DNA of 64,000 nt from Vicia villosa (Eukaryota > Streptophyta > Magnoliopsida > Fabales > Fabaceae), in the NCBI RefSeq assembly GCF_029867415.1, contig NC_081183.1, forward strand, positions 31,769,806 to 31,833,805, in the 5' to 3' direction. Shown in pieces: positions 18,790 through 63,749 of this stretch. The notes under the pieces are model-generated. The model was not told where the DNA came from. It worked only from the letters and a program-made list of their open reading frames with translations, and searched no databases. How positions within the stretch are numbered: the first letter of the stretch is position 1; every line of letters begins with the position of its first letter. The position numbers and the translations under genes were made by a program.

Positions 18790-20712
18790 ATGGCTGGTGA
18801 AGATCCATCACATACATCTACATCTGGCTCAACTGAGCAATACAATGGAAATGGTAACAATGGTTATACTAGACCACCATTATTTGATGGTGAAAACTTT
18901 GAATACTGGAAAGATAAACTTGAAAGTTACTTCCTTGGTCTAGATGGTGACTTATGGGATCTTCTTATGGATGGTTACAAACATCCAGTAAAAGCTACTG
19001 GCGTAAGGCTTACAAGATAAGAAATGAATGATGATCAAAAGAAGCTTATCAAAAATCATCATAAATGTAGGACTGTTTTGCTGAATGCTATCTCTCATGC
19101 TGAGTATGAGAAGATATCTAACAGGGAAACTGCCTATGATATATATGAGTCATTGAAAATGACCCATGAAGGAAATGCTCAAGTCAAGGAGACCAAAGCT
19201 CTTGCTCTAATCCAGAAATATGAAGCCTTCAAGATGGAGGATGATGAAAATATTGAGAAGATGTTCTCAAGATTTCAAACACTAACTGCTGGATTAAGAG
19301 TTCTGGACAAAGGCTACACCAAGGCTGATCATGTAAAGAAAATTATCAGAAGCTTGCCCAGAAGATGGGGTCCAATGGTGACTGCATTCAAGATAGCAAA
19401 GAATCTGAATGAAGTCTCTTTGGAAGAGCTAATTAGTGCCTTGAGAAGCCATGAGATAGAGCTGGATGCAAATGAGCCTCTGAAGAAAGGTAAGTCTATT
19501 GCATTAAAATTTAATTATAAAAAATGCACTAACGCTTTTCAGGCTGAAGAAGTAGATTCTGAAGAATCAGAAGAAGAAGAAGATGAACTGTCCATGATCT
19601 CCATAAGGGTAAACCATCTCTGGAAGAGCAAGCAAAGGAAGTTCAAGAGCTTCAGAAGTTCAAAGAAGCCTGAAAAAGGAGAATCTTCTGGAGGCAGAAG
19701 ATCTGACAAGAAGAAGGTCATCTGCTATGAGTGCAATGAGCCTGGACACTTCAAGAATGAATGTCCAAAATTTCAGAAGGAGAATCCCAAGAAGAAGTTC
19801 CATAAGAAGAAAGGTCTTATGGAAACATGGGATGATTCAGAATCAGAATCAGAATCAGATTCTGAAGGCGAGCAGGCAAACCTTGCACTGATGGCCACAG
19901 TGGATGACGGATCAGAATCTACATCAGAATCAGATTCTGAAGAGGTATTTTCTGAACTATCTAGAGAAGAGTTAGTTTCCAGTTTAACTGAACTTCTGGA
20001 ACTCAAGGCTCATCTTAGTATCAAATACTAAAAGCTGAAAAAGCAATTTGAATTTGAAACTAAGAAGCTGTAAGTGGAAAATTCTGAACGGAAGGAAAAA
20101 GTTTTAAAATTATCCAAAGATATTGGATCTCCTTCTGAATCAGAAAAATCCATTCCTAGTCTCAATCATATTCTAAAAGAATATGACTCGAGCTTCAGAA
20201 AGTTCCTATCTAGAAGTATTGGCAGAAGCCATCTTGCTTCTATGATATATGGTGTATCTGGAAACAAAAGGTTTGGTTTTGGCTATGAGGGTGATACCTC
20301 ACACAAATTTGAACCTGTTGATGATTTGAAAATCACATACAAGCCATTGTATGATCAGTTCAAATATGGCCACTCACATGATATTAGGCTCACTTCACAT
20401 GCCAAAAGCTTTAACACTACACACACCAAGAAGCATGTGACACAACCTAAAAAATATCATGCTGCCAAACTTAAAGAATATCATGTTTTTCCTCCTGTTA
20501 CTTATAATGCTAAACCCAAGCTCAATCATAACTTGAGGAAAACTAACAAGAAAGGACCCAAGAAATTGTGGGTACCTAAGGAGAAGATAATTTCTGTTGT
20601 AGATATCCTTAGCAGCAAAGAAGACAAAGCACAAAATGTCATGGTACCTGGACTCTGGGTGCTCGCGACACATGACGGGAAGAAGGTCTATGTTCCAAGA
20701 CCAGGTGCTTAA
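18790..20712 (+). pseudogene. Gag of SIRE-like copy A, three in-frame stops
   Basis: Structural capsid protein of a Ty1/copia element, 641 codons in one frame. The N-terminal part carries the copia gag core (YWKDKLESYFLG near residue 38). A CCHC zinc knuckle (CYECNEPGHFKNEC) starts at residue 312. Acidic Ser/Glu-rich stretches flank the knuckle. Stops interrupt the frame at 19018-19020 (TAA where copy B has CAA), 20029-20031 and 20071-20073. The start was chosen at the ATG after the PBS, matched in copy B. The C-terminal end overlaps pol in a different frame. Non-functional as written. Confidence 0.9.
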
Positions 20713-22183
20713 ATCTGGTGGAGAAGTCAAGTTTGGAGGAGATCAGAAGAGCAAGATTATTGGCTCTGGAACCATAAGTATTGGTAACTCTCCTTCCATA
20801 ACTAATGTACTTCTTGTAGAAGGATTAGCGCATAACTTATTGTCCATAAGTCAATTAAGTGACAATGGTTATGACATAATCTTCAATCAAAAGTCTTGCA
20901 AGGCTATAAGTCAGAAGGATGGCTCAATCCTATTTACAGGCAAGAGAAAGAACAACATTTATAAGATTGATCTTTCAGATCTTGAGAAGCAAAAGGTGAC
21001 TTGCCTTATGTATGTTTCTGAAGAGCAATGGGTCTGGCACAGAAGATTAGGACATGCTAGTTTGAGAAAGATTTCTCAGATTAACAAACTAAATCTGGTC
21101 AGAGGACTCCCAAATCTGAAATTCAAATCAGATGCTCTTTGTGAAGCATGTCAGAAGGGCAAGTTCTCCAAACCTGCATTCAAATCTAAGAATGTTGTCT
21201 CTTCCTCAAGGCCGTTAGAACTTCTGCACATTGATCTGTTTGGACCAGTCAAAACAGCATCTGTCAGAGGGAAGAAATATGGATTAGTCATCGTAGATGA
21301 TTATAGCCGCTGGACATGGGTAAAGTTCTTAAAACACAAGGATGAGTCTCATTCAGTGTTCTTTAAATTCTGCACTCAGATTCAATCTGAGAAGGAGTGC
21401 AAAATCATAAAGGTCAGAAGTGATCATGGTGGTGAATTTGAGAACAGATTCTTTGAGGAGTTCTTCAAAGAAAATGGTATTGCCCATGATTTCTCTTGCC
21501 CTAGAACTCCACAGCAAAATGGAGTTGTAGAGCGAAAGAATAGGACTCTACAAGAAATGGCCAGAACCATAATCAATGAAACCAATATGGCTAAGCACTT
21601 CTGGGCAGAAGCAATAAACACTGCATGTTATATTCAGAATAGAACCTCTATAAGACCTATTCTAAATAAGACACCTTATGAATTGTGGAAGAACAGAAAG
21701 CCCAGCATTTCATATTTTCATCCTTTTGGATGTGTTTGTTTTATTCTGAATACTAAAGATCATCTTGGTAAGTTTGATTCTAAGGCACAAAAATGTTTCC
21801 TTCTTGGATATTCTGAACGCTCTAAAGGCTACAGAGTATACAATACTGAAACATTGGTTGTAGAAGAATCAATCAATATCAGATTTGATGATAAGCTTGG
21901 TCTTGAAAAGCCAAAGCAGTTTGAGAATTTTGCAGATATAGATATTGATATATCAGAAGCTGTAGAACCAAGAAGCAAAGTTTCAGAAGCTGAAAATCTC
22001 AGAAGCAAAGAATCAGAAGATCAAGTTGCTGCATCTTTAGAGAATCTCAGAATTTCTGAAGAGCCAACAGTCAGAAGATCTTCTAGACTCATTTCGGCTC
22101 ACTCAGAAGATGTGATCCTTGGAAAGAAAGATGATCCTATCAGAACTAGATCATTTCTAAAGAATGGCAGCCAGAATCAGTAA
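20603..22183 (+). CDS. Protease-integrase part of SIRE-like pol (RT and RNase H missing)
   Basis: The frame opens after a TAG at 20600-20602, is +1 relative to gag, and overlaps gag by 110 bp. Counting from the first Met (20636): the aspartic protease motif YLDSGCSRHMTG comes at 4-15. The integrase zinc finger is His135, His140, Cys169, Cys172. The catalytic triad is Asp200, Asp263, Glu299, with normal D-35-E spacing (HIDLFGP, RSDHGGEF, NGVVERKN). The copia integrase tail with FGCVCF and GYSERSKGYRVYN follows. The frame ends just after RTRSFLK, where a full element would enter reverse transcriptase. What remains is open and could fold, but it cannot drive transposition alone. Confidence 0.9.
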   Translation: MSLAAKKTKHKMSWYLDSGCSRHMTGRRSMFQDQVLKSGGEVKFGGDQKSKIIGSGTISIGNSPSITNVLLVEGLAHNLLSISQLSDNGYDIIFNQKSCKAISQKDGSILFTGKRKNNIYKIDLSDLEKQKVTCLMYVSEEQWVWHRRLGHASLRKISQINKLNLVRGLPNLKFKSDALCEACQKGKFSKPAFKSKNVVSSSRPLELLHIDLFGPVKTASVRGKKYGLVIVDDYSRWTWVKFLKHKDESHSVFFKFCTQIQSEKECKIIKVRSDHGGEFENRFFEEFFKENGIAHDFSCPRTPQQNGVVERKNRTLQEMARTIINETNMAKHFWAEAINTACYIQNRTSIRPILNKTPYELWKNRKPSISYFHPFGCVCFILNTKDHLGKFDSKAQKCFLLGYSERSKGYRVYNTETLVVEESINIRFDDKLGLEKPKQFENFADIDIDISEAVEPRSKVSEAENLRSKESEDQVAASLENLRISEEPTVRRSSRLISAHSEDVILGKKDDPIRTRSFLKNGSQNQ

Positions 22184-22466: not shown

Positions 22467-22604
22467 CATTTCAAATCATAACGTTTATCTTTTTCGCTCC
22501 CATTCTCTCTCTCCTTATGCATGCATTTTTGTAACCTCTTTGCCCTTTTCTCTAACCCTAAGCGCAAACCCAGAATTTGTTCTTGCAATCTCAGTATTGT
22601 TTCA

Positions 22605-25600
22605 ATGGCTGCCCCATCATCTCTCAATGCTAGTTCATCTGCTCCTCTCCATCTTCAAGAAGAAGATCAAGAACTTGTTCCAGTTATCTCCTGCTCTATT
22701 CCCAAAAAGGAGTTAGAAGTTATCTGTGAACTTATGGTAGACTTTGACAGTCTTGAAGAACATGGGTATCATCTTAAAAAAGATATCATCTTTCAAGGAT
22801 GGACCTCTTTATTTGCTGAGATCTGTGGACCGGTTTACCCAGATCTTGTAAAGGAATTTTGGGTGCATGCTGTTGTTGCTCCTAAATCTATTCTGTCCTT
22901 TGTCCATGGGAAGTTTGTAGTTGTTACTGAAAACATCCTGAGAATGATGTTTGATCTAAGAAACCCTGAGGGTGCTCATGAAATTGATCTAAGGGCTGAA
23001 TGGGATGAAGTATTGGCTACTCTCTATAAAGATGTGAAGAAAACTGATCGTGTCAAGGGCATGAAGGATCTCTACAAAATCTGGACCAAGATTCTTCTGG
23101 GGTGTTTTTATCACAGGAAAGCAACCCATTCTGCAGATTTTGTCAACAATGAGCAGAAATACATTCTATATTGCATTGCCACTCAGAAGAAGGTTGATGT
23201 TATCTACATAATCTTCAACCACATGTGGAATGCTGTGAGGGATTCCAGAAATGCTTTCAGAAAGAAGAAGTGTACTATTATTCCTTTTGGAAGAATTATT
23301 ACAAATCTTCTAGTTCATTCCAAGATTGTTGAGGACCTGGAAGCTCAAGGGACAATCAAATATCTTGTTGTTGATACTGGAAGTTGCTTGAATGCTCTCA
23401 CTTTGAGAAAGATGAGTGTTATTGATGTTGTTGTTCAAACCCCTCAACCTCTTGCTGGAGCAAGAAGCAGAAGAGATCCTGTTCTTACTGACTTTGAGTC
23501 TTTCTTCAGAAGTGAGCTGCCAGAAGTCAGAACTATCTATCTGAACTCACTCAAAGAAGAAGAAGGCAAAGTTGCTCCTGCTAAAGGTGGTCGCAAGAAA
23601 GTTTCCACTTCCAGGCCTGCTGTTTCAGAAGATGTTTCAGAAACAGCACCTGATGCTGTTGTCAAGAAGGAAAGAAGGACAAAGAGAAAATTTGATCATC
23701 CTTCTGTTAACCAGGAAAAGGTTGTCCAAAGTGTAGCTGCTGCTACTGAAGTTGTTGAGAAAGCTGCTCAAGAAGAAGTTGTTGCTGAAGAAGTTCAGAA
23801 AGCTGTAGTTGAAAAAGAGACTGCTGAGAAGAAAAAGAAGAAGAAGAGAAATATGAAAAATAAGAATGTGGAAAGTGAAAAGGCTGTTGAAAAGAAGGAG
23901 ACAAGAAAAAGAAAATTAATCATTAATGATTTGGATGCAGAAGAAGAAGCTCAAGAAGTTGTGAATCAGCCAGAAGGAACTATTCAAGGACCAACAACTC
24001 AAGTAGTTGAAGGTCAGAAGGCTGCTGATAATGAGAAGGAGAGATTGGAATCTGCCAGAAGAAGAGAAATTTCTCTTGGAAAGGCAAAGATTGTGGAAGA
24101 GCAGAAGAGTAAGAAGCAGAGGAAGCTGGAGGCTGTGTTTGAAACAGTTCAGAAGGTGTCCAAAGGTATACATCTCTCTGAACCTAATTCTGTTCCTGCT
24201 TTACGTTCAGAAGTAGCACCAATAGTTGTTGCTCAAACCCCTGAACCAGTAAATCAACCAGAAAAAGCCCCATCAGAATCACCCATAAACATCCATGTTC
24301 TCACACCTCCTTCTTCTCCTGTAACCAAAACTCTTACTCCTCCTCATTCACCCATCACAAATGTTCCCATTCCTTCATCTCCACCCACAATCAACCTTGC
24401 TTCTGACCAGGCCCTTGAAAACCCTGTCCTTGATATACCACCCCTTCAAACTCTCTTTCCACCTCACACAAATATATCCACTTCTCAACCCCCACCTCAT
24501 GCAAACTATGAACCCATTCCTTCCACCTCCCAAAATAATCCTTTTGTATCAGATATTCCAGATTCTGCATCACATGAGCAATTGCTCTGTGACTGCAATT
24601 ACACACCCAAGCCTCGTCCTGAAGCTGAGATGGTAGTGTTAGATTCTGAGAATGAAGCAGAATCATCTTTTCGTTTGGATAGAGAGCCTCAACCCTATTT
24701 TGTCCCAAACCTAGATTCCCCCATAACCAAAATAAAATCCCGCCGAGCATACCCTATTGGTGTAATCTATGAAATGGTAAAGAGGAACGTCAGAAGAGTC
24801 TTTGATACTCTCAGAATAGTTGAACATGCTGGATTAAATGATGTTGCTATGCGAAAATTCATGAGAATCTTCCGAAGAAAAGCAGATGCTTATTTTGAAG
24901 AACTTCAGGAAATTTGTGTAGAACTCGCTCCACGACCTTGTGGAATTCTGAGACCCTATGAAGACTTCTGGTTCAGTCGTCTTGGAGGGAGATATATCTT
25001 TGAAGAGAAGGAATTCACTGATGAACTTGTAGAAGCACGAATTGCTGCGGATATGGAAGCTAATCCTTGCAGAGAGATTGTGGTCTGGAGACTTAAGTAT
25101 CCAGTTCTGACTGGAGACTTCAAGTCCTTGTTCGACTTTCTGAGGGAAAATTCTTCTGAGAAAGACCCCAATTTGGTCATTCCAGAAGTTGTTGACCCAC
25201 CAGAAGTTGAAGGTCCTTCTGCCCCAAGGAATCTTGCTGCCATTCTTCAAGCTCTTGAGAATGGAGATTCTGATCTTCCTGCTGCAGAATATGATGGAGA
25301 TGCTTCTATGGAAGAAGCTGATGCTGAAGATCATCCTGCTGGGACTATTCCTGTTGAGGAAAATCAAGGTGATGATCTAACAATGGAAGCTGCAGTTCAG
25401 AATGTTGTCCCTCTGAACAAAAGTTGTGAAGCTTTTTCTGGTGAACGCTCTCTTCTGGTGAAGACTCTAGAGGTTATTCAGAAGAACCAAGCTGAGCTAT
25501 CTTCTCGCATGGACGCGCAAGATACTACCAATGCTGAGTTCCGCACTTTCATGGAGAGGCAGGCTGAGAGCAATGCTGGGATTCATGACATGCTGGCCAA

Positions 25601-25697
25601 GATTATGTCTAAGCTAGGGTCGTCTTACTCCTTTTGTGTCTTAGTAGTTTCTTTCTTTCTTGCATCTGTCTTCTATGCATCTTCCTTGTACTTCTGA
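22605..25697 (+). CDS. Env-position ORF of SIRE-like element (plant transposon protein family)
   Basis: Long intact ORF, 1030 aa from the ATG at 22605. The context tcaATGGc is good; an upstream in-frame ATG at 22521 would add 28 residues. The N-terminal third (about 25-300) resembles the domain of 'putative plant transposon' proteins (WTSLFAEICGPVYPDLVKEF). A Lys/Glu-rich charged region follows (about 310-560), then a Pro/Ser/Thr-rich stretch (about 560-680), a second globular part (about 720-860), a coiled-coil candidate (about 950-1005) and a hydrophobic tail (CVLVVSFFLASVFYASSLYF) that could span a membrane. Pro-rich region, coiled coil and terminal hydrophobic segment are the features described for SIRE env-like proteins. 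Its function is unknown, and an env-like role is inference. It is intact although gag beside it has three stops. Confidence 0.65.
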   Translation: MAAPSSLNASSSAPLHLQEEDQELVPVISCSIPKKELEVICELMVDFDSLEEHGYHLKKDIIFQGWTSLFAEICGPVYPDLVKEFWVHAVVAPKSILSFVHGKFVVVTENILRMMFDLRNPEGAHEIDLRAEWDEVLATLYKDVKKTDRVKGMKDLYKIWTKILLGCFYHRKATHSADFVNNEQKYILYCIATQKKVDVIYIIFNHMWNAVRDSRNAFRKKKCTIIPFGRIITNLLVHSKIVEDLEAQGTIKYLVVDTGSCLNALTLRKMSVIDVVVQTPQPLAGARSRRDPVLTDFESFFRSELPEVRTIYLNSLKEEEGKVAPAKGGRKKVSTSRPAVSEDVSETAPDAVVKKERRTKRKFDHPSVNQEKVVQSVAAATEVVEKAAQEEVVAEEVQKAVVEKETAEKKKKKKRNMKNKNVESEKAVEKKETRKRKLIINDLDAEEEAQEVVNQPEGTIQGPTTQVVEGQKAADNEKERLESARRREISLGKAKIVEEQKSKKQRKLEAVFETVQKVSKGIHLSEPNSVPALRSEVAPIVVAQTPEPVNQPEKAPSESPINIHVLTPPSSPVTKTLTPPHSPITNVPIPSSPPTINLASDQALENPVLDIPPLQTLFPPHTNISTSQPPPHANYEPIPSTSQNNPFVSDIPDSASHEQLLCDCNYTPKPRPEAEMVVLDSENEAESSFRLDREPQPYFVPNLDSPITKIKSRRAYPIGVIYEMVKRNVRRVFDTLRIVEHAGLNDVAMRKFMRIFRRKADAYFEELQEICVELAPRPCGILRPYEDFWFSRLGGRYIFEEKEFTDELVEARIAADMEANPCREIVVWRLKYPVLTGDFKSLFDFLRENSSEKDPNLVIPEVVDPPEVEGPSAPRNLAAILQALENGDSDLPAAEYDGDASMEEADAEDHPAGTIPVEENQGDDLTMEAAVQNVVPLNKSCEAFSGERSLLVKTLEVIQKNQAELSSRMDAQDTTNAEFRTFMERQAESNAGIHDMLAKIMSKLGSSYSFCVLVVSFFLASVFYASSLYF

Positions 25698-25830: not shown

Positions 25831-26800
25831 ATTATCAGTTGCTGGGAGAAAGTCTCCACATTTCTAACAAGAAATTGCAAGTTCTGTGTCTTTGAGTGTT
25901 TTGCAGGAAGTGAAGATCTACTTAAAAGCTCAACATGAGAAGCAAAGACATGGGAAAAGCAATTCTGTATGGAATCAAGCTCATGGAATTTGAAGCATGC
26001 TGAGTGCTATAAAGCTTCAAGATTAGAAGCAAGAAGGAAGAATGTTATGATATTCTAATGATAGAATATTCTCTAACACATTCTTATTCCTTATATGTTC
26101 TGATGCATGTTTTAGTTCTAAATATGCTCTAAAACATAATTGTTTTTGCTCTGATACATATTATATGTTCTGATACATATTTTATGTTCTGATTCATTCA
26201 TGCTCTGACTTTTGTCGTTTAGCTTATTCTGTAACATTTCAGGATGTAGAGATGCTCTGATGATGCTCTGGTACATTCAACAATGTTCTGATACAATCTA
26301 GCATGCAAATGATTCAAGAAGAAATTCAAGCTCTGAAGCTGTCCTATGGAAGCAAGAATCAATTGGATTGTTCCTATGGATGTGGGTTGATAGAGAGGGG
26401 GTGTTCAACAAAAATCAATTGGATTGTTCCTATGGATGTGGGTTGATAGAGAGTGTTACTCTCTTTTTTTTTTGTCATTTAAATATGCAGGTGTGGTTCA
26501 AGATTCTCCGATAGTTAAACATATCTAATGTGATGCACAATTTTGTCATATCAAATATTTATCAGTTTAGAGGGTTGCGCAAACCGGAGAAAAATGAAAC
26601 AAAAAAATTTGATGTAATTTAGTTTGCTAGCATTTGAATAATGTGGAAAGGGTGTAATGAAAAAATAATAGTTAGAGTTAGGTTTGATTCTTAATCAAAC
26701 GACTTGTAATGGCCTGAGTCAATTATGTTACTTGGCAGTTAGCACTACACTTTAGTTTTAGAGTTTGGTTTAATTCTTAATCAAGTTTGGCTAGTATATT
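25831..26800. other. Downstream SIRE-like sequence and intergenic DNA
   Basis: 25831-26350 is non-coding and rich in 'gttctgatacat'-like phrases, perhaps the element's 3' untranslated part. 26466-26800 shows nothing recognisable apart from a 'taattcttaatcaa'-type doublet at 26675 and 26769. Confidence 0.35.
26357..26453. repeat. 41-bp direct repeat pair
   Basis: The unit beginning aatcaattggattgttcc and ending gatagagag occurs at 26357-26397 and again at 26413-26453, 56 bp apart, with no mismatch seen. Confidence 0.95.
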
Positions 26801-27101
26801 TGATAGAGAAGAGAAATTATTTAGATAAATAATTTAGTTAGTTAAATTAAGGACTAATTTATATTAGGAGTACTTTTATTCCTATTGTTATGTAATCGGG
26901 CTTTGTATAGTGTTTGGGTCTTCTAGTTAAGTATCCACTATGAGTACTATATACGTAATCCTTTGAGACTTTGAAGAGTATCAATCAAAAATCAATGAAA
27001 GTTATTTTATTCTCTTTTTCTTTAGTTTGCTTTTTAATGTCTTTCTAGAATTTTTAGTTATTTTCATAGTCTTGTTAGGATTCTAATCCAGCATCCTAAT
27101 A
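26801..27101 (+). repeat. 5' LTR of the gene-capturing element
   Basis: 301 bp, TGATAGAGAAG...CATCCTAATA. Preceded by target copy ATATT. Confidence 0.92.
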
Positions 27102-27141
27102 ATTGGTGCTTTCATTTTTGATCTCACTTTTGCTTAAAGTC

Positions 27142-27561
27142 ATGACGATATTATTGTTTGATGGGGAAGAAGATGCCTATTGGTGGATTATATGTTTGGA
27201 GAAATTTTTCAAGGAGCATGAAACACCCAAATCATTGAAGGTTTTAAAAGTTGTTGGAGCATTGAGAGGTTCTCCTTTCACATGGTGGATATGGTAGTGT
27301 TGTGTTCATCCGAGATATAATTGGGACACATTTACAACAACATTCCTATGGCGTTTTAAACCTGAATGGCGAGAAATTTTACCAATTTCGGGTGAGGAAG
27401 AGGAACCGATTGAAGAGTCTTCATCCTTGGTAGAGCAAAGTGTTACGGTAGATGTAGATTTCTCAAAATTTGTTGAGGATTTTGACAAATCAGAGAATGA
27501 GGATTTTCACGATGTTGCTGATTTCATGATTCCACTGGAACCTCCAGATCCAAACCCTTGA
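27142..27561 (+). pseudogene. Gag N-terminal remnant with one stop
   Basis: The frame reads LLFDGEEDAYWWIICLEKFF, then LRGSPFTWW, then after a TAG at 27295-27297 WDTFTTTFLWRFKPEWREI, ending at a TGA at 27559. This is the order of a Ty3/gypsy capsid domain (FDGED...WI...EKFF...W..F...F..RF). It breaks off where the captured host sequence starts and is not functional. Confidence 0.7.
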
Positions 27562-27567
27562 ACTATT

Positions 27568-27975
27568 GTGGAAGCCCTAGAAGAATCATTCAATCTATAT
27601 AGATCACAACAAGAGCAATCCAATCTATATAGAAAACATCACAGCGTCTCCGAACTCAAAACCCTAGGTAACGAACTTCTATCATCAGCCTCAAACATCA
27701 ACAATCTTCACTCTTCTTCCACCAAATTCGATTATGCAGAATCAGAGAATCTCCCGATTTCCAGACGCATTCTCTACATCACTCTCACTTCACTTTCTCT
27801 CGCTGCTGACGAATCCCTAGATTCCGACAACCACGGACAATACTCTGTTTTCCGTAACAAAATCTCTATCTCTACACGCCTCAAGTCGAATCCGTTCATT
27901 CCACTACCCAAGACGTTTTCTCCCTCGATGTCGTCGGAGAAGCAGAAGACAAAGACACCCTCATCGAGCCTATGA
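27568..27975 (+). CDS. ORF of unknown origin inside the capture element
   Basis: 136 codons in the same frame as the gag remnant, opening six bases after its stop. Composition looks like plant coding sequence (SELKTLGNELLSSASNINNL), so it is probably a captured exon, but the parent gene was not identified. The next ORF starts inside its last codons in another frame. Confidence 0.4.
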   Translation: MEALEESFNLYRSQQEQSNLYRKHHSVSELKTLGNELLSSASNINNLHSSSTKFDYAESENLPISRRILYITLTSLSLAADESLDSDNHGQYSVFRNKISISTRLKSNPFIPLPKTFSPSMSSEKQKTKTPSSSL

Positions 27976-29315
27976 CGCCAGTGCTAGGGAAATTGATTCA
28001 ACCACAGTTGTCTCCACTTCCAGAACCGCCTAATCCAATCTCGGTGCCAGTCTCACTGCTGCCACTTGAACTAACTCACCTTTTGTTTGATGAAATGCCA
28101 GAACGAGAAGCTTCCAGATTCTTCGCCGCAGCGGTGTTGCACATCATCTCTATGACCTACAGTCCAGGTCCCTTCAACGACGACAAGTTTCATGATGATG
28201 TCGATTTTGAAATTCCACTAAAACCACCAAATCAGATGGTCATTCAAACATCATCACTTTTTTTGTCATATTTTTCAAAACAATTCGTTCATCACTATCC
28301 TGAGAAGGCAGAGAAAGAGCATTCGACCTCGCTAAAACCACGATTCAATACGCTTAATGATCCTTGTGTTAATTGGATTGAGATTACTTGTAGTGATGGG
28401 AACATTAGTGTTGTTAATTTTCAGAAGATGGGTCTTAGTGGTGTGATATCTTCCGAGTTGGTTAAGCTTAAGTCGCTGCAAAGACTTATTCTTTGGGATA
28501 CCAATATCACAGGTTTGGTTCCTAATGAGCTTACTGGTTTGATTCCTAATGAGCTTACTAATTTGCCTATGCCTACTCATTTGAATGTTACAAACAATTA
28601 TCTATATGGAAAACCACATAGTTTTACGAAGGATGTAATTGTTACTACTAGTGGGAACATTGATATGGGGAAAGATACGAGTAACCTTTCACCTCAGGGT
28701 TCACTGTCTCCTAATAGTACCACTTTGAATGATGGAAATGGTGTTTGGCCTGAATCAAAGAGTTATAATGATGAAGGGTTTGGACCAATTCCATCCAAGT
28801 GGAGAGGGATCTGTGAAAAAGGGTATGATCTTGCTTTCCGCTGCAACAGGAAACTAATCGGGGCAAGGTATTTCAACAAAGTCTATGCTTCGAGGTTATC
28901 TACACCGCTCAACCCGTCCTCTAACATTCCCCGTGACAACGAAGGCCATGAATCTCATACATTATCGACAGCCGGTGGAAACATGGTACCTGATGTAAGT
29001 GTCTTTGGCCAAGGCTATGGAACAACAAAAGGTGGTTCACCGAAAGTGAGAGTTGTGTTATACAAATTTTGTTGGAATCCGATTGATGGTGGCGAGTGCT
29101 GTGATGCAGCCATACTTGCAGCTTTTAATATGGAAATCCATGAAGGGGTTGATGGTTTGTCTTTGTCACTTGGTGGATTTGCTTCTAATTTTTTTAATAA
29201 TAGTGTTGCTATTGGATCTTTCAATGCTGCGAAGAAAGGCATTGTTGTAGTTTGTTCTGCTGGAAATAGTGGACCGAATGAGGCTTTGGAGTTTTTTAGG
29301 CAGAAGAGAGGATAG
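27972..29315 (+). CDS. Chimeric ORF: LRR receptor-kinase fragment fused to subtilase fragment
   Basis: 447 codons without a stop. Residues about 1-129 are Pro-rich and unidentified. Residues about 130-250 match the second LRR block and spacer of TMK-type receptor kinases (DPCVNWIEITCSDGNISVVNF, LSGVISSELVKLKSLQRLIL, NVTNNYLYGK). From 257 the ORF switches to a plant subtilisin-like protease of the SBT5/AIR3 kind (GVWPESKSYNDEGFGPIPSK, CNRKLIGARYFNK, RDNEGHESHTLSTAGG, GIVVVCSAGNSGPN) and stops near 440. The catalytic Asp is lost at the junction, the Gly after the active-site His is Glu, and the Ser domain is missing, so no protease activity is expected. The subtilase part runs without introns, suggesting capture from mRNA. 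Expression is unknown. Confidence 0.8.
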   Translation: MTPVLGKLIQPQLSPLPEPPNPISVPVSLLPLELTHLLFDEMPEREASRFFAAAVLHIISMTYSPGPFNDDKFHDDVDFEIPLKPPNQMVIQTSSLFLSYFSKQFVHHYPEKAEKEHSTSLKPRFNTLNDPCVNWIEITCSDGNISVVNFQKMGLSGVISSELVKLKSLQRLILWDTNITGLVPNELTGLIPNELTNLPMPTHLNVTNNYLYGKPHSFTKDVIVTTSGNIDMGKDTSNLSPQGSLSPNSTTLNDGNGVWPESKSYNDEGFGPIPSKWRGICEKGYDLAFRCNRKLIGARYFNKVYASRLSTPLNPSSNIPRDNEGHESHTLSTAGGNMVPDVSVFGQGYGTTKGGSPKVRVVLYKFCWNPIDGGECCDAAILAAFNMEIHEGVDGLSLSLGGFASNFFNNSVAIGSFNAAKKGIVVVCSAGNSGPNEALEFFRQKRG

Positions 29316-29328
29316 ATTCATAAAGGTA

Positions 29329-29470
29329 TGTTACTGGTTCATATAGGTATAACATGTTGGCATTGGATGTTATTCAACATGACAGAGAAAATTGGGCAGA
29401 AAATTGTCATGAATTTAATCCAATGAGATTTAGCGAACCTCATAAGTATTTAGCTGCATTTCTTTCCAAG
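29329..29470 (+). pseudogene. Captured cytochrome P450 fragment
   Basis: One frame reads DRENWAEN, then EFNPMRFSEPHKYLAAF (codons from about 29382 to 29465). This is the PERF region of plant P450s that lies just before the heme loop. The heme-binding cysteine motif is absent because the segment ends there. It follows the subtilase piece by under 20 bp. Confidence 0.7.
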
Positions 29471-30052
29471 GTACAACCATCCATTCAATTATCATATTTG
29501 TGAATTCAATTAATGAAATATTTCCTTGGAACATACAATGTGTTTACTTTATTTTGGAGACAACACCTTTCCTTGGAATATTCCAACTTGTGCCACATAT
29601 ACTCTTTGATAGCAGTGTCATTAAATGGAAACCAACTATACTAATTGCTACTAGCTTTATTGCAAGTTTAGACACAAAGATGAAGCTAGTTTTGTCAACT
29701 AGTATGGATCCAACCTGTTACAGTATTGAGGAATTTTCAACTTTTCCTCTAAACCTTAAATGGAGTTCTATTATGTGTGTCTTTTATCATTTAAGATTGG
29801 TTCGATATTGTGGAAATGGTTTAAAGAAAAATTTGAAGGTATATACTCAAGTTGGTTTCTGTTGAAGGTGATGCAATTTTCAAACTCAACTTTTAGAGAC
29901 AACATTCACACATATCTTTGGAAAGAAATGCTTTTAGTTGCTCAAATTGTAAAGAATAAATTGTCTCAATTTAAGAGGTGGGATCAGGGGAAAAAATGGT
30001 GACATTATTATTACAACCTTGAGGACAAGGTTGATTTTGAAGGGGTGAGTAA
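29471..30052 (+). other. 3' interior of the capture element with purine tract
   Basis: A 122-codon ORF (29500-29865) has no recognisable family. The end reads 'cttgaggacaaggttgattt' and then gaaggggtgagtaa (30039-30052), the typical 3' untranslated end and PPT of a gypsy element. Other captured pieces may be hidden here. Confidence 0.5.
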
Positions 30053-30361
30053 TGATAGAGAAGAGAAATTATTTAGATAAATAATTTAGTTAGTTAAATT
30101 AAGGTCTAATTTATATTAGGAGTACTTTTATTCCTATTGTTATGTAATTGGGCTTTTTATAGTGTTTGAGCGTTCTAGTTAAGTATCCACTATGAGTACT
30201 ATATACATAATCCTTTGAGACTTTAAAGAGTATCAATCAAAAATCAATGAAAGTTATTTTATTCTCTATTTTTTTTATTTTTTTAGTTTGTTTTTAATGT
30301 CTTTCTAGAATTTTTAGTTATTTTCATAGTCTTGTTAGGATTCTAATCCAGCATCCTAACA
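30053..30361 (+). repeat. 3' LTR of the gene-capturing element
   Basis: 309 bp, 8 bp longer than its partner because of a longer T-rich run; followed by ATATT. Confidence 0.92.
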
Positions 30362-30591
30362 ATATTGGTCAGAGGTTATAGTTTTGTTGCAGCCATGAAA
30401 TATATTTCAATTTTGGCATTCAATATTGCACTTATTATGTGGTCGTTTCATCTTTGAATGCCATTTGTTTATGCAACTCATTCTTGTTAGTTAGGTGGGG
30501 GGTATTTTGATTTTATGAGTTTACTTGAGGCAGCTTTGCATCGGAGATTTTATATCTTCTGCATCATATCATGTGTTTCAAAATTTATTAA

Positions 30592-61738: not shown

Positions 61739-61823
61739 ATTGGCATTAGAGCGCTGGTTCTAAGGTGCAAGCACTTAACCGTGTTTAGAAAAGATTCAGG
61801 AAGAGAAAAACGATTAAGTCAAG

Positions 61824-63749
61824 ATGGCTGGTGAAGATCCAACACATACATCTACATCTGGCTCTGCTGAGCAACAAAATGGAAATGGTAACAATGGTTA
61901 TTCTAGACCACCAGTATTTGATGGTGAAAACTTTGAATATTGGAAAGATAAACTTGAAAGTTACTTTCTTGGTCTAGATGGTGACTTATGGGATCTTCTG
62001 ATGGATGGTTACAAACATCCAGTGAAAGCTAGTGGTGTAAAGCTTAAAAGACAAGAGATGAATGATGATCAAAAGAAGCAATTCAAAAATCATCACAAGT
62101 GTAGGACTGTTTTGCTGAATGCTATCTCTCATGCTGAATATGAGAAGATATCTAACAAGGAAACTGCCTATGACATATATGAATCATTGAAAATGACTCA
62201 TGAGGGAAATGCCCAAGTCAAGGAGACTAAAGCTCTTGCCTTGATCCAGAAATATGAAGCCTTCAAGATGGAGGATGATGAAAATATTGAGAAGATGTTC
62301 TCAAGATTTCAAACGCTAACTGCTGGATTAAGAGTTCTTGACAAGGGATACACAAGGGCTGATCATGTCAAGAAGATCATCAGAAGCTTGCCAAGAAGAC
62401 GGGGTCCTATGGTGACTGCTTTCAAAATTGCCAAGAATCTGAATGAAGTCTCTCTTGAAGAATTGATCAGTGCTCTGAGGAGTCATGAAATTGAGCTGGA
62501 TGCTAATGAACCTCAGAAGAAAGGTAAGTCTATTGCATTAAAATCTAATTATAAAAAATGCACTAACGCTTTTCAGGCTGAAGAAGTAGATTCTGAAGAA
62601 TCAGAATCAGAAGAAGAAGATGAACTATCCATGATCTCTAGAAGGGTAAACCAACTCTGAAAGAGCAAGCAAAGGAAGTTCAAGAGCTTCAGAAGTTCAA
62701 AGAAGCCTGAAAGAGGAGAATCTTCTGGAGGCAGAAGATCTGACAAGAAGAAGGTCATTTGTTATGAGTGCAATGAGCCTGGACACTTCAAGAATGAATG
62801 TCCAAAACTTCAGAAGGAGAATCCCAAGAAGAAGTTTCATAAGAAGAAAGGTCTTATGGCAACATGGGATGATTCAGAATCAGAATCAGAATCAGACTCT
62901 AAAGGCGAGCAGGCAAACCTTGCACTAATGGGCACAGTGGATGATGGATCAGAATCTACATCAGAATCAGATTCTGAAGAGGTATTTTCTGAACTATCTA
63001 GAGAAGAGTTAGTTTCCAGTTTAACTGAACTTCGAGAACTCAAGGCTCATCTTAGTATCAAATACATAAAGCTGAAGAAGCTATTTGATTGTGAAACTAA
63101 GAAGCTGGAAGTGGAAAATTCTGAACTGAAGGAAAAAGTTTTAAAATTACCCAAAGATATTGGATCTCCTTCTGAATCAGAAAAATCCATTCCTAGCCTC
63201 AATCATATTCTGAAAGAATATGACTCGAGCTTCAGAAATTTTCTATCTAGAAGTATTGGCAGAAGTCATCTTGCTTCTATGATATATGGTGTTTCTGGAA
63301 ACAAAAGGATTGGTGTTGGCTATGAGGGTGATACCCCACATAAATTTGAACCTGTTGATGATATGAAAATCACATACAAGCCATTGTATGATCAGTTCAA
63401 ATATGGCCACTCACATGATATTAGGCTCACCTCACATGCCAAAAGCTTTCATGCTACACACACCAAGAAGCATGTGACACAACCTAGAAAATATCATGCT
63501 GCCAAACCTAAAGAATATCATGTTGTTCCTCCTGTTGCTTATTATGCTAAACCCAAGTTCAATCAGAACTTGAGGAAAACTAACAAGAAAGGACCCAAAA
63601 AGTTGTGGGTACCTAAGGAGAAGATAATTTCTGTTGCAGATATCCTTCGCAGCAAAGAAGACAAAGCACAAAATGTCATGGTACCTGGACTCTGGGTGCT
63701 CGCGACACATGACGGGAAGAAGGTCTATGTTCCAAGACCTGGTGCTTAA
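61824..63749 (+). pseudogene. Gag of SIRE-like copy B, one in-frame stop
   Basis: 642 codons in one frame, the same protein as copy A. The CCHC knuckle starts at residue 313. A single TGA at 62658-62660 replaces the TGG found in copy A; the two copies thus carry different stops. Its C-terminal end overlaps pol in another frame, exactly as in copy A. Confidence 0.9.

Follow-up and report, generated by a model that had tools for sequence, protein, structure and literature searches.

How did pieces of several unrelated cellular genes come to lie, all in sense and partly within one open reading frame (ORF), between the long terminal repeats (LTRs) of a single element in Vicia villosa? The window analyzed in this study is a 64,000-nucleotide stretch of the genome of this species, and all positions given below refer to it.

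Structure of the window element

Positions 26801-30361 hold a complete LTR element flanked by ATATT duplications (Table 1). These duplications and the paired LTRs are present as the initial annotation had described them, and across 312 aligned columns the two LTRs show 93.3% identity. The paired TG..CA LTRs and the 5-bp target duplication are those of an LTR retrotransposon, with the 5' LTR of this copy now ending in TA. At a substitution rate of 1.3e-8, the LTR distance of 0.07 gives an age of about 2.7 million years, and the window copy is an old, damaged family member. Its longest surviving ORF comprises a family module, the TMK and subtilase pieces and the start of the PPR piece, which contains the end of the ORF; the 485 codons compare with a maximum of 174 by chance (100 first-order Markov resamplings of the interior).

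Only a gag stub had been credited to the element itself. The leader is indeed weakly gag-like, but this account was incomplete, and the 5', middle and 3' modules of the window element are common to other elements. The module at 27646-28098 may resemble the start of a NOC4-like protein. The stretch at 27562-27972 (137 aa) had no Pfam match and a best PDB match of E 0.63. In two relatives (L009 and L021), similarity to the window element ends at 28367.

Table 1. Features of the window element and its flanks (window positions).
Feature	Position	Strand	Remarks
Target-site duplication ATATT, left	26796..26800	.	
5' LTR	26801..27101	+	TG start, TA end; 93% identical to 3' LTR
PBS-like motif ATTGGTGCTTTCAT	27102..27116	+	adjoins 5' LTR
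gag-like leader	27142..27390	+	interrupted by stop codon
Family module, donor-less so far	27646..28098	+	82-84%, common to L011, L012, L024, L027
Family module 5' of TMK join	28184..28355	+	
TMK receptor-kinase ectodomain piece	28356..28740	+	donor-type gene L037 (85%)
Subtilase (SBT5.3-type) piece	28740..29285	+	two exons fused without the intron of L013/L014
PPR-gene piece	about 29281..29359	+	donor-type gene L050 (85%)
Cytochrome P450 piece	29357..29468	+	donor-type gene L049 (86%)
Family 3' module	29466..30050	+	L015 (88%); partly L025, L026, L028
Purine-rich tract, end of 3' module	about 30039-30049	+	
3' LTR	30053..30361	+	CA end
Target-site duplication ATATT, right	30362..30366	.	
Longest surviving ORF	27858..29315	+	485 codons, stop to stop

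Origin of the captured pieces

The window element contains at least four host-gene pieces, all in sense as had been proposed, derived from genes of TMK receptor kinase, SBT5.3-type subtilase, PPR and cytochrome P450 type. A search for donors located a related intact gene for each piece elsewhere in the Vicia villosa genome. The initial annotation, which had claimed at least three host genes, was right about several donors, but its count overlooked the PPR piece between the subtilase and P450 pieces. The interior is thus not an ordinary single host gene found without LTRs, the donor-type genes lying elsewhere; several unrelated cellular genes are represented inside one pair of LTRs.

Similarity to the proposed gene families survived proper searches. 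The window ORF, which carries the TMK and subtilase segments together as first described, matched cucumisin (E 4e-46) and TMK1 (E 3e-35) in the PDB, as well as Peptidase_S8 above and LRR_1 below the Pfam cut-off. When searched alone, the P450 piece (48 aa) had no Pfam match and a PDB E of only 0.26. Its identity, also claimed at the outset, holds because its DNA matches a P450 gene (86% to L049, whose translation scores PF00067 with E 5e-31), not because of a protein search.

The subtilase piece, correctly read from the start as intron-free, lacks the GT..AG intron of the related genes (358/361 bp in L013/L014), with the loss falling exactly at the splice sites; it therefore derives from spliced mRNA. 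This is the one piece for which a spliced origin was found. The TMK piece lies within one donor ORF and the matches of the P450 and PPR pieces are uninterrupted, so these are uninformative on splicing. On incidental inspection, no intron-containing captured pieces were recognized in young elements. Against this reading, an AACAG repeat flanks the subtilase intron, and a deletion could use this repeat too.

All five joins of the window element have overlaps of 3-7 nt, and the native reading frames of both partners are kept at every one of them. The overlap is AATGATC at the left join of the TMK piece and AGGCT at that of the PPR piece, which is in frame with the subtilase piece, while the P450 piece has TTG on its left and CCA on its right. 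The window element and L010 share the TMK-subtilase fusion, together with a 24-bp duplication, despite their different LTRs. Multi-gene capture via spliced RNA and template switching, as originally suggested, is supported by the donor-type genes, the exact intron loss and the short overlaps at the joins.

Extent of the family

When other copies of the element were sought, a motif spanning the LTR end and PBS gave 473 matches in the genome, whereas the reversed control gave none. Interest shifts from the window copy to a family of multi-gene chimeras in long frames. The PBS-like motif is present in the 10 relatives compared, with one base differing in L009. Some members are very young, with LTR pairs up to 100% identical. 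Five-bp duplications flank 10 of the 20 loci of the first set, plus L029 and L030 among eight later loci. The first set includes two subtilase genes (L013 and L014) and eight loci with no clean target duplication (L016-L023), which were excluded from the ORF and phase counts. The ends of L028 (5.4 kb) are doubtful, L031-L036 are without confirmed duplication (L032-L035 touch the edge of the fetched stretch), and L046-L048 serve for description only. Relatives retrieved by resemblance to earlier members are non-independent.

Six of seven leaders from the family matched Retrotrans_gag, with a best E of 0.0015 and one score of 15.4 that is under the cut-off of 24.1, and there were also weak Ty3_capsid matches. 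A profile of the gag leader found nothing in the PDB (best E 1.4). The ORFs scanned yielded no pol-domain match, leaving nothing to place in a reverse transcriptase or integrase phylogeny; the sole match of this kind is the weak gag-like one of the leader. We regard the LTR family as non-autonomous and probably Gypsy-type.

Chimeric proteins of this kind are present at NCBI, 11 from Vicia villosa and one from Lathyrus sativus, and eight of the 12 contain host-gene domains above cut-off. Many of these proteins have recurring leaders and a recurring C-terminal QWDPG-like motif, and one is named 'isoform X2'. At least 11 'uncharacterized' vetch gene models are thus likely transposon chimeras. Literature titles and abstracts, with most subscription papers beyond reach, yielded no description of the Vicia villosa family.

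Long open frames across relatives

The interiors of the relatives are mosaics of sense host-gene pieces, mostly in one reading frame. The longest sense ORF reaches 718-1123 codons in 13 of the 18 dissected relatives. Among eight elements chosen by position, four have a longest ORF of 784-932 codons and four are without a 700-codon ORF. In Markov resamplings of 26 interiors, the longest ORF never exceeded 243 codons. Unrelated host-gene domains lie within the long sense ORFs of relatives; in L030, for example, Cse1, RPN1, AAA_2, HSP70, FmdA, MCM and RSE1-type domains share a single 1063-codon ORF, with seven genes joined. Five elements (L009, L024, L026, L039 and L044) carry different gene sets, each with its frame open; L009, for one, has RRM/SF3b1 pieces. 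Phase was kept in 212 of 216 inter-element alignments, and sense ORFs are split over two frames in L010, L015, L027, L036 and L043.

As a control, 152 ORFs of 60 aa or more that were off-frame or antisense were scanned in 15 elements, and the only strong match was an antisense transposase in L038. The remaining matches, among them MIS13 and DUF6568, were weak (E 0.001-0.004), and those other than MIS13 and DUF6568 fell below their cut-offs. L040 (23 of 82 off-frame ORFs) was excluded from this control and five of its ORFs were scanned apart, two of which, both antisense, have MATH domains (E down to 9e-32). L040 has no detected LTR pair, and these two ORFs may therefore lie outside any element.

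Elements trade both modules and LTRs with one another. The interiors of L011 and L012 differ by 3.6% and their LTR-bearing end segments by 22 and 26%; the LTR pair within each element is 100% (L011) or 99.0% (L012) identical.

Substitution patterns and possible explanations

Across ten pairs of elements, 15 stops were observed compared to 34.1 expected (P 0.0007), and 493 missense changes compared to 496.6 expected. The omega-like ratio was 0.885 over these non-independent pairs, two of which gave values above 1. Constraint at the amino-acid level is weak or absent; substitutions look neutral and stops are depleted. In the L026/L025 pair, depletion was not clear under the mutation-spectrum control (1 stop versus 1.8 expected). 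Purifying selection on amino acids was considered and rejected, as Nei-Gojobori omega values of 0.46/0.50 became 0.73/0.94 once the mutation spectrum was controlled for.

The explanation that we hold with good confidence is a non-autonomous, probably Gypsy-type family that undergoes microhomology-guided template switching onto host mRNAs and is under selection chiefly for an open frame. Several observations weigh against this explanation: the weak or absent amino-acid constraint, the damaged window copy, the five elements with sense ORFs in two frames, intron loss seen for a single piece, the four position-chosen elements without a 700-codon ORF and the antisense MATH ORFs of L040; no autonomous partner, transcript or particle was observed. 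In this model, the RNA of the element would be packaged together with host mRNAs in particles from a putative autonomous relative, where reverse transcriptase may switch template at short matches to produce new captures and at long matches to produce module and LTR swaps. The substitution statistics suggest that multiplication would be largely confined to products whose long frame is unbroken, while their amino-acid sequence would matter little. The likeliest candidate reason is that translation almost to its 3' end would keep the RNA stable, letting it escape the nonsense-mediated decay of long 3' UTRs, or would be required for its packaging. For the wider proposal, in which the lineage selects openness regardless of content, replacing and extending its coding region with in-frame pieces of host mRNAs that are traded between copies, and perhaps holds hundreds of multi-gene ORFs, we consider the chances evenly balanced.

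It is also possible, though unlikely, that the chimeric proteins are useful, as domesticated genes or a functional Gag-fusion, and that selection at the protein level holds the frame. The 12 NCBI proteins, the 'isoform X2' label that hints at transcript support, and the recurrent leaders and C-terminal motif are consistent with this; however, the middle of the protein varies between elements and missense changes are at neutral expectation. It is less likely still that several captures took place in one unusual lineage and that the long frames were inherited from one or a few lucky ancestors, with no selection for openness. Although many relatives share modules by descent, homologous exchange preserves phase without selection and the L026/L025 pair lacks clear stop depletion, this scenario is at odds with the five elements that are open despite different pieces, the native frames preserved at all five window joins, and the depletion of stops across the ten pairs. 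Mosaics made at the DNA level without reverse transcription, whether through insertion of transposons, recombination or errors of assembly, are very improbable. Duplications and evenly spaced copies do exist, but the sense orientation of the pieces, the exact loss of an intron, the LTRs flanked by target duplications, the short join overlaps and the TMK-subtilase fusion shared with L010 under different LTRs all argue against them.

Implications and comparison with known systems

Gene capture by LTR elements has so far been represented mostly by single cases or catalogues. The young members and the 473 sites of the vetch family allow capture rate, mRNA choice and template-switch sites to be measured, and the family lets one ask if a retroelement RNA has to be translated in order to spread even when the protein is meaningless. 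As the family stitches host-gene pieces into long frames, it is a natural machine for chimeric genes. If the wider proposal of openness regardless of content is true, a plant genome would be running a natural exon-shuffling experiment.

TRIM elements are very short and without coding capacity, while the vetch elements are about 3-4 kb with ORFs up to 1123 codons. LARD elements have a large non-coding interior, whereas vetch interiors hold long ORFs.

Comparisons with published systems refer to the available portions of each report. Maize Bs1, in which an LTR element encloses parts of three cellular genes together with a chimeric gene (PMC13317346), is the closest precedent. Both are LTR elements that contain several pieces of host genes along with a chimeric frame; unlike Bs1 as described there, vetch members carry differing gene sets (seven genes in L030) and exchange modules and LTRs. 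In pepper, spliced host mRNAs of NLR genes were captured in LTR elements, many of them non-autonomous (PMC5664825); that report concerns duplicated resistance genes, whereas short unrelated pieces are concatenated in frame in vetch. Host genes inside LTR elements have been surveyed genome-wide in rice and sorghum for counts, expression and selection (PMC3726574), in contrast to the vetch family with its continuous multi-gene frame. Pack-MULEs and Helitrons also carry host-gene fragments, sometimes transcribed as chimeras (PMC13317346), but these are DNA transposons, in contrast to the LTR-flanked vetch elements with their spliced piece.

Structure of the window element and its candidate donor genes

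In the window element, a PBS-like motif and a gag-like leader open the interior, and a purine-rich tract (PPT) closes it; the element's limits and longest frame are given in the table below. DNA searches of the Vicia villosa genome found intact related genes for four of its pieces: L037 for the TMK receptor kinase piece, L013 and L014 for the subtilase piece (SBT5.3-type), L050 for the PPR piece and L049 for the P450 piece. These genes are best or near-best matches (85-96% identity) and are candidate donors, or possibly relatives of the donors. The initial annotation had named TMK, subtilase and P450 segments, each of which has a donor-type gene, and had missed PPR. It had also described the subtilase part as intron-free, and the captured piece indeed consists of two exons joined between CAACAG and GAAA, where a GT..AG intron of 358 bp (L013) or 361 bp (L014) is absent.

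Coordinates of features in the window and at related loci of the same genome (G000)
Feature	Location	Strand	Observation
Short tandem array	window, about 15004-15085		Matches step by 6 bases
Copia-type gag and integrase domains	window, 19021-22180	+	Retrotran_gag_2, rve, gag_pre-integrs
1071-codon ORF	window, 22482-25694	+	Transposase_32 (putative plant transposon protein), E 7e-17
LTR element	window, 26801-30361		ATATT target duplications; LTR pair 93.3% identical
Longest frame of LTR element	window, 27858-29312		TMK piece fused to subtilase piece
Second Copia-type gag	window, 61818-63746	+	Zinc knuckle; near window end
Motif copies on C1	G000:C1:251361535-251367407		Three copies, equal spacing 2926 bp
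Motif copies on C2	G000:C2:213192218-213199352		Three copies, equal spacing 3557 bp
L040, ORFs 1299-2126 and 2069-2752	G000:C2:22690620-22694550	-	MATH domain, antisense to motif, E down to 9e-32
L048	G000:C7:104709800-104712600		Duplicated chimeric ORF with TMK stretch

The sequences on the two sides overlap at all five joins (AATGATC, GGTG, AGGCT, TTG and CCA), the second overlap shrinking to GTG when the subtilase exon alone is counted. Random junctions among the four donor sequences have a mean overlap of 0.72 nt; the share with 3 nt or more is 6%, with 5 or more 0.6% and with 7 or more 0.05%. At the left join, the uncaptured sequence is visible in the related element L009, which has no TMK at that point. 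With frames counted as found and no sequence mended, the two sides of each join match in native frame at five of five joins, although the last is less certain because of a one-base length difference from L049 just before it. The element, the TMK and subtilase pieces and the beginning of the PPR piece share one frame, while the final part of the PPR piece, together with P450 and the 3' module, is in a second; since the two split inside the PPR piece and both sides agree at every join, the shift lies within that piece and not at a join. The shared stretches remain open in relatives of the window element.

Family size and long frames in relatives

The window element is a member of a family, not a singleton. 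The search for other copies proposed in the initial annotation found many relatives, and the motif formed by the LTR end and PBS has 473 matches in the genome (reversed control, 0). No description of this family was found in the literature searched, to which any claim of novelty is limited. Target duplications were present at 10 of 20 loci fetched by match to the interior, and four of these 10 (L009, L011, L024 and L027) have LTRs that are 100% identical. In 13 of 18 relatives (these 10 and eight fetched later), the longest sense ORF spans 718-1123 codons, and in the other five 330-696. Seven relatives (L009, L011, L024, L026, L030, L034 and L035) have a single ORF that extends over essentially the entire stretch between PBS and PPT, while the long ORF is split by an in-frame stop in L012, L025 and L032, and ORFs switch frame in L010, L015, L027 and L036. 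The equal motif spacings on C1 and C2 suggest LTR elements in tandem arrays.

Eight further sites were hand-picked by position only from roughly 100 motif places listed, avoiding loci already fetched. Four of them (L039, L042, L044 and L045) have ORFs of 784-932 codons, and these are the four in which the LTR pair aligns with 99.6% identity or better across more than 200 bp. L043 has an ORF of 551 codons and another of 280 in a different frame, and ORFs are short in L038 (291 codons), L040 (150) and L041 (365). Sense-ORF host domains occur in five of the eight sites (MatE and kinase; kinase; HSP90, annexin and ammonium transporter; histone deacetylase; HSP70), and none was above the cut-off in the sense ORFs scanned from L038, L040 and L041. 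No LTR pair was found at L040, where antisense ORFs with a MATH domain would speak against the sense rule if located within an element and be neutral if they belong to a neighbouring gene.

Host-gene content of relatives

All within one ORF, L030 matches Cse1, RPN1, AAA_2, HSP70, FmdA, MCM and RSE1/DDB1-type domains. Other relatives carry SEO, KH, SF3b1 and three RRM matches (L009); PPR and ketol-acid reductoisomerase (L024); WD40 and DXS (L025/L026); Cse1, RPN1, amidase, mannosidase and RRM (L031); COG4, Cse1 and ThiF (L034); or COG4, Cse1, AAA_2 and a HEAT repeat (L035). Judged by eye, L048 also has pieces like SF3B1, PPR and a P5CS-like kinase. Twelve NCBI proteins (11 from Vicia villosa, one from Lathyrus sativus) match one or other of two leader queries; host domains are above the cut-off in eight (P0122-P0126, P0129, P0131 and P0132), P0128 has a kinase match below it, and the same scan found none in P0121, P0127 and P0130. 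Compared by eye, P0128, listed by NCBI as 'isoform X2', is missing an internal portion of the 869-codon ORF found in L042, a hint that an element transcript is spliced.

Strand, phase and probable selection on the open frame

As a control, 15 elements were scanned for domains (E <= 0.01) in their off-frame or antisense ORFs of 60 aa or more, 152 in all. The only match in 93 of them was weak (MIS13, 0.0039), and the other 59 yielded a transposase in L038 (5e-17) and five weak families (0.001-0.0035), three of these on one stretch; the antisense transposase indicates that a DNA transposon probably interrupted L038. Where ORFs of different elements align, 212 of 216 alignments are in phase; these are not independent, and homologous exchange alone would keep phase. 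The four exceptions are alignments of L025 and L026 with L028 and L036 in the 5' LTR/leader. The joining of unrelated host genes in their native frames is the stronger argument.

Substitutions in ten element pairs were compared with a control keeping the mutation spectrum. There were 210 silent changes (187 expected), 493 missense changes (497 expected) and 15 stop changes (34 expected): stops are depleted approximately 2.3-fold (P 0.0007), silent changes slightly exceed expectation (P 0.025) and missense changes are neutral. These P values are optimistic because the pairs overlap, with L030 used three times and L009, L011, L034 and L035 twice, and because the damaged window copy is part of one pair. 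Single pairs gave omega-like values of 0.54 to 1.24.

In plants, nonsense-mediated decay tends to act on RNA with a far-upstream stop, and so a long 3' UTR. A frame running to the PPT would avoid such decay, a candidate reason for its openness. A packaged Gag-fusion is an alternative candidate, although leaders vary from element to element and middle parts are unrelated.

Exchange between elements and probable repeated capture

The interiors of L011 and L012 have 103 differences in 2898 positions, whereas the ends holding their LTRs are 22 and 26% different. Blocks of 0.9-1.9 kb are common to L027 and each of L029, L031 and L032, which otherwise differ from it. The TMK-subtilase fusion is found in both the window copy and L010, as is a 24-bp duplication, while flanking modules and LTRs of the two differ. 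The extent of TMK differs among window/L010, L011/L012, L046/L047 and L048; TMK was therefore probably captured more than once. Two pairs of otherwise alike elements (L034 vs L035, L011 vs L027) differ at a corresponding point by the presence or absence of a segment of about 26 codons (SVFWCMLPYKRLIVADF...), which leaves the frame intact.

Elsewhere in the window, the Transposase_32 ORF sits just upstream of the LTR element, and the short tandem array is similar to 38 bp of the LTR of L009.
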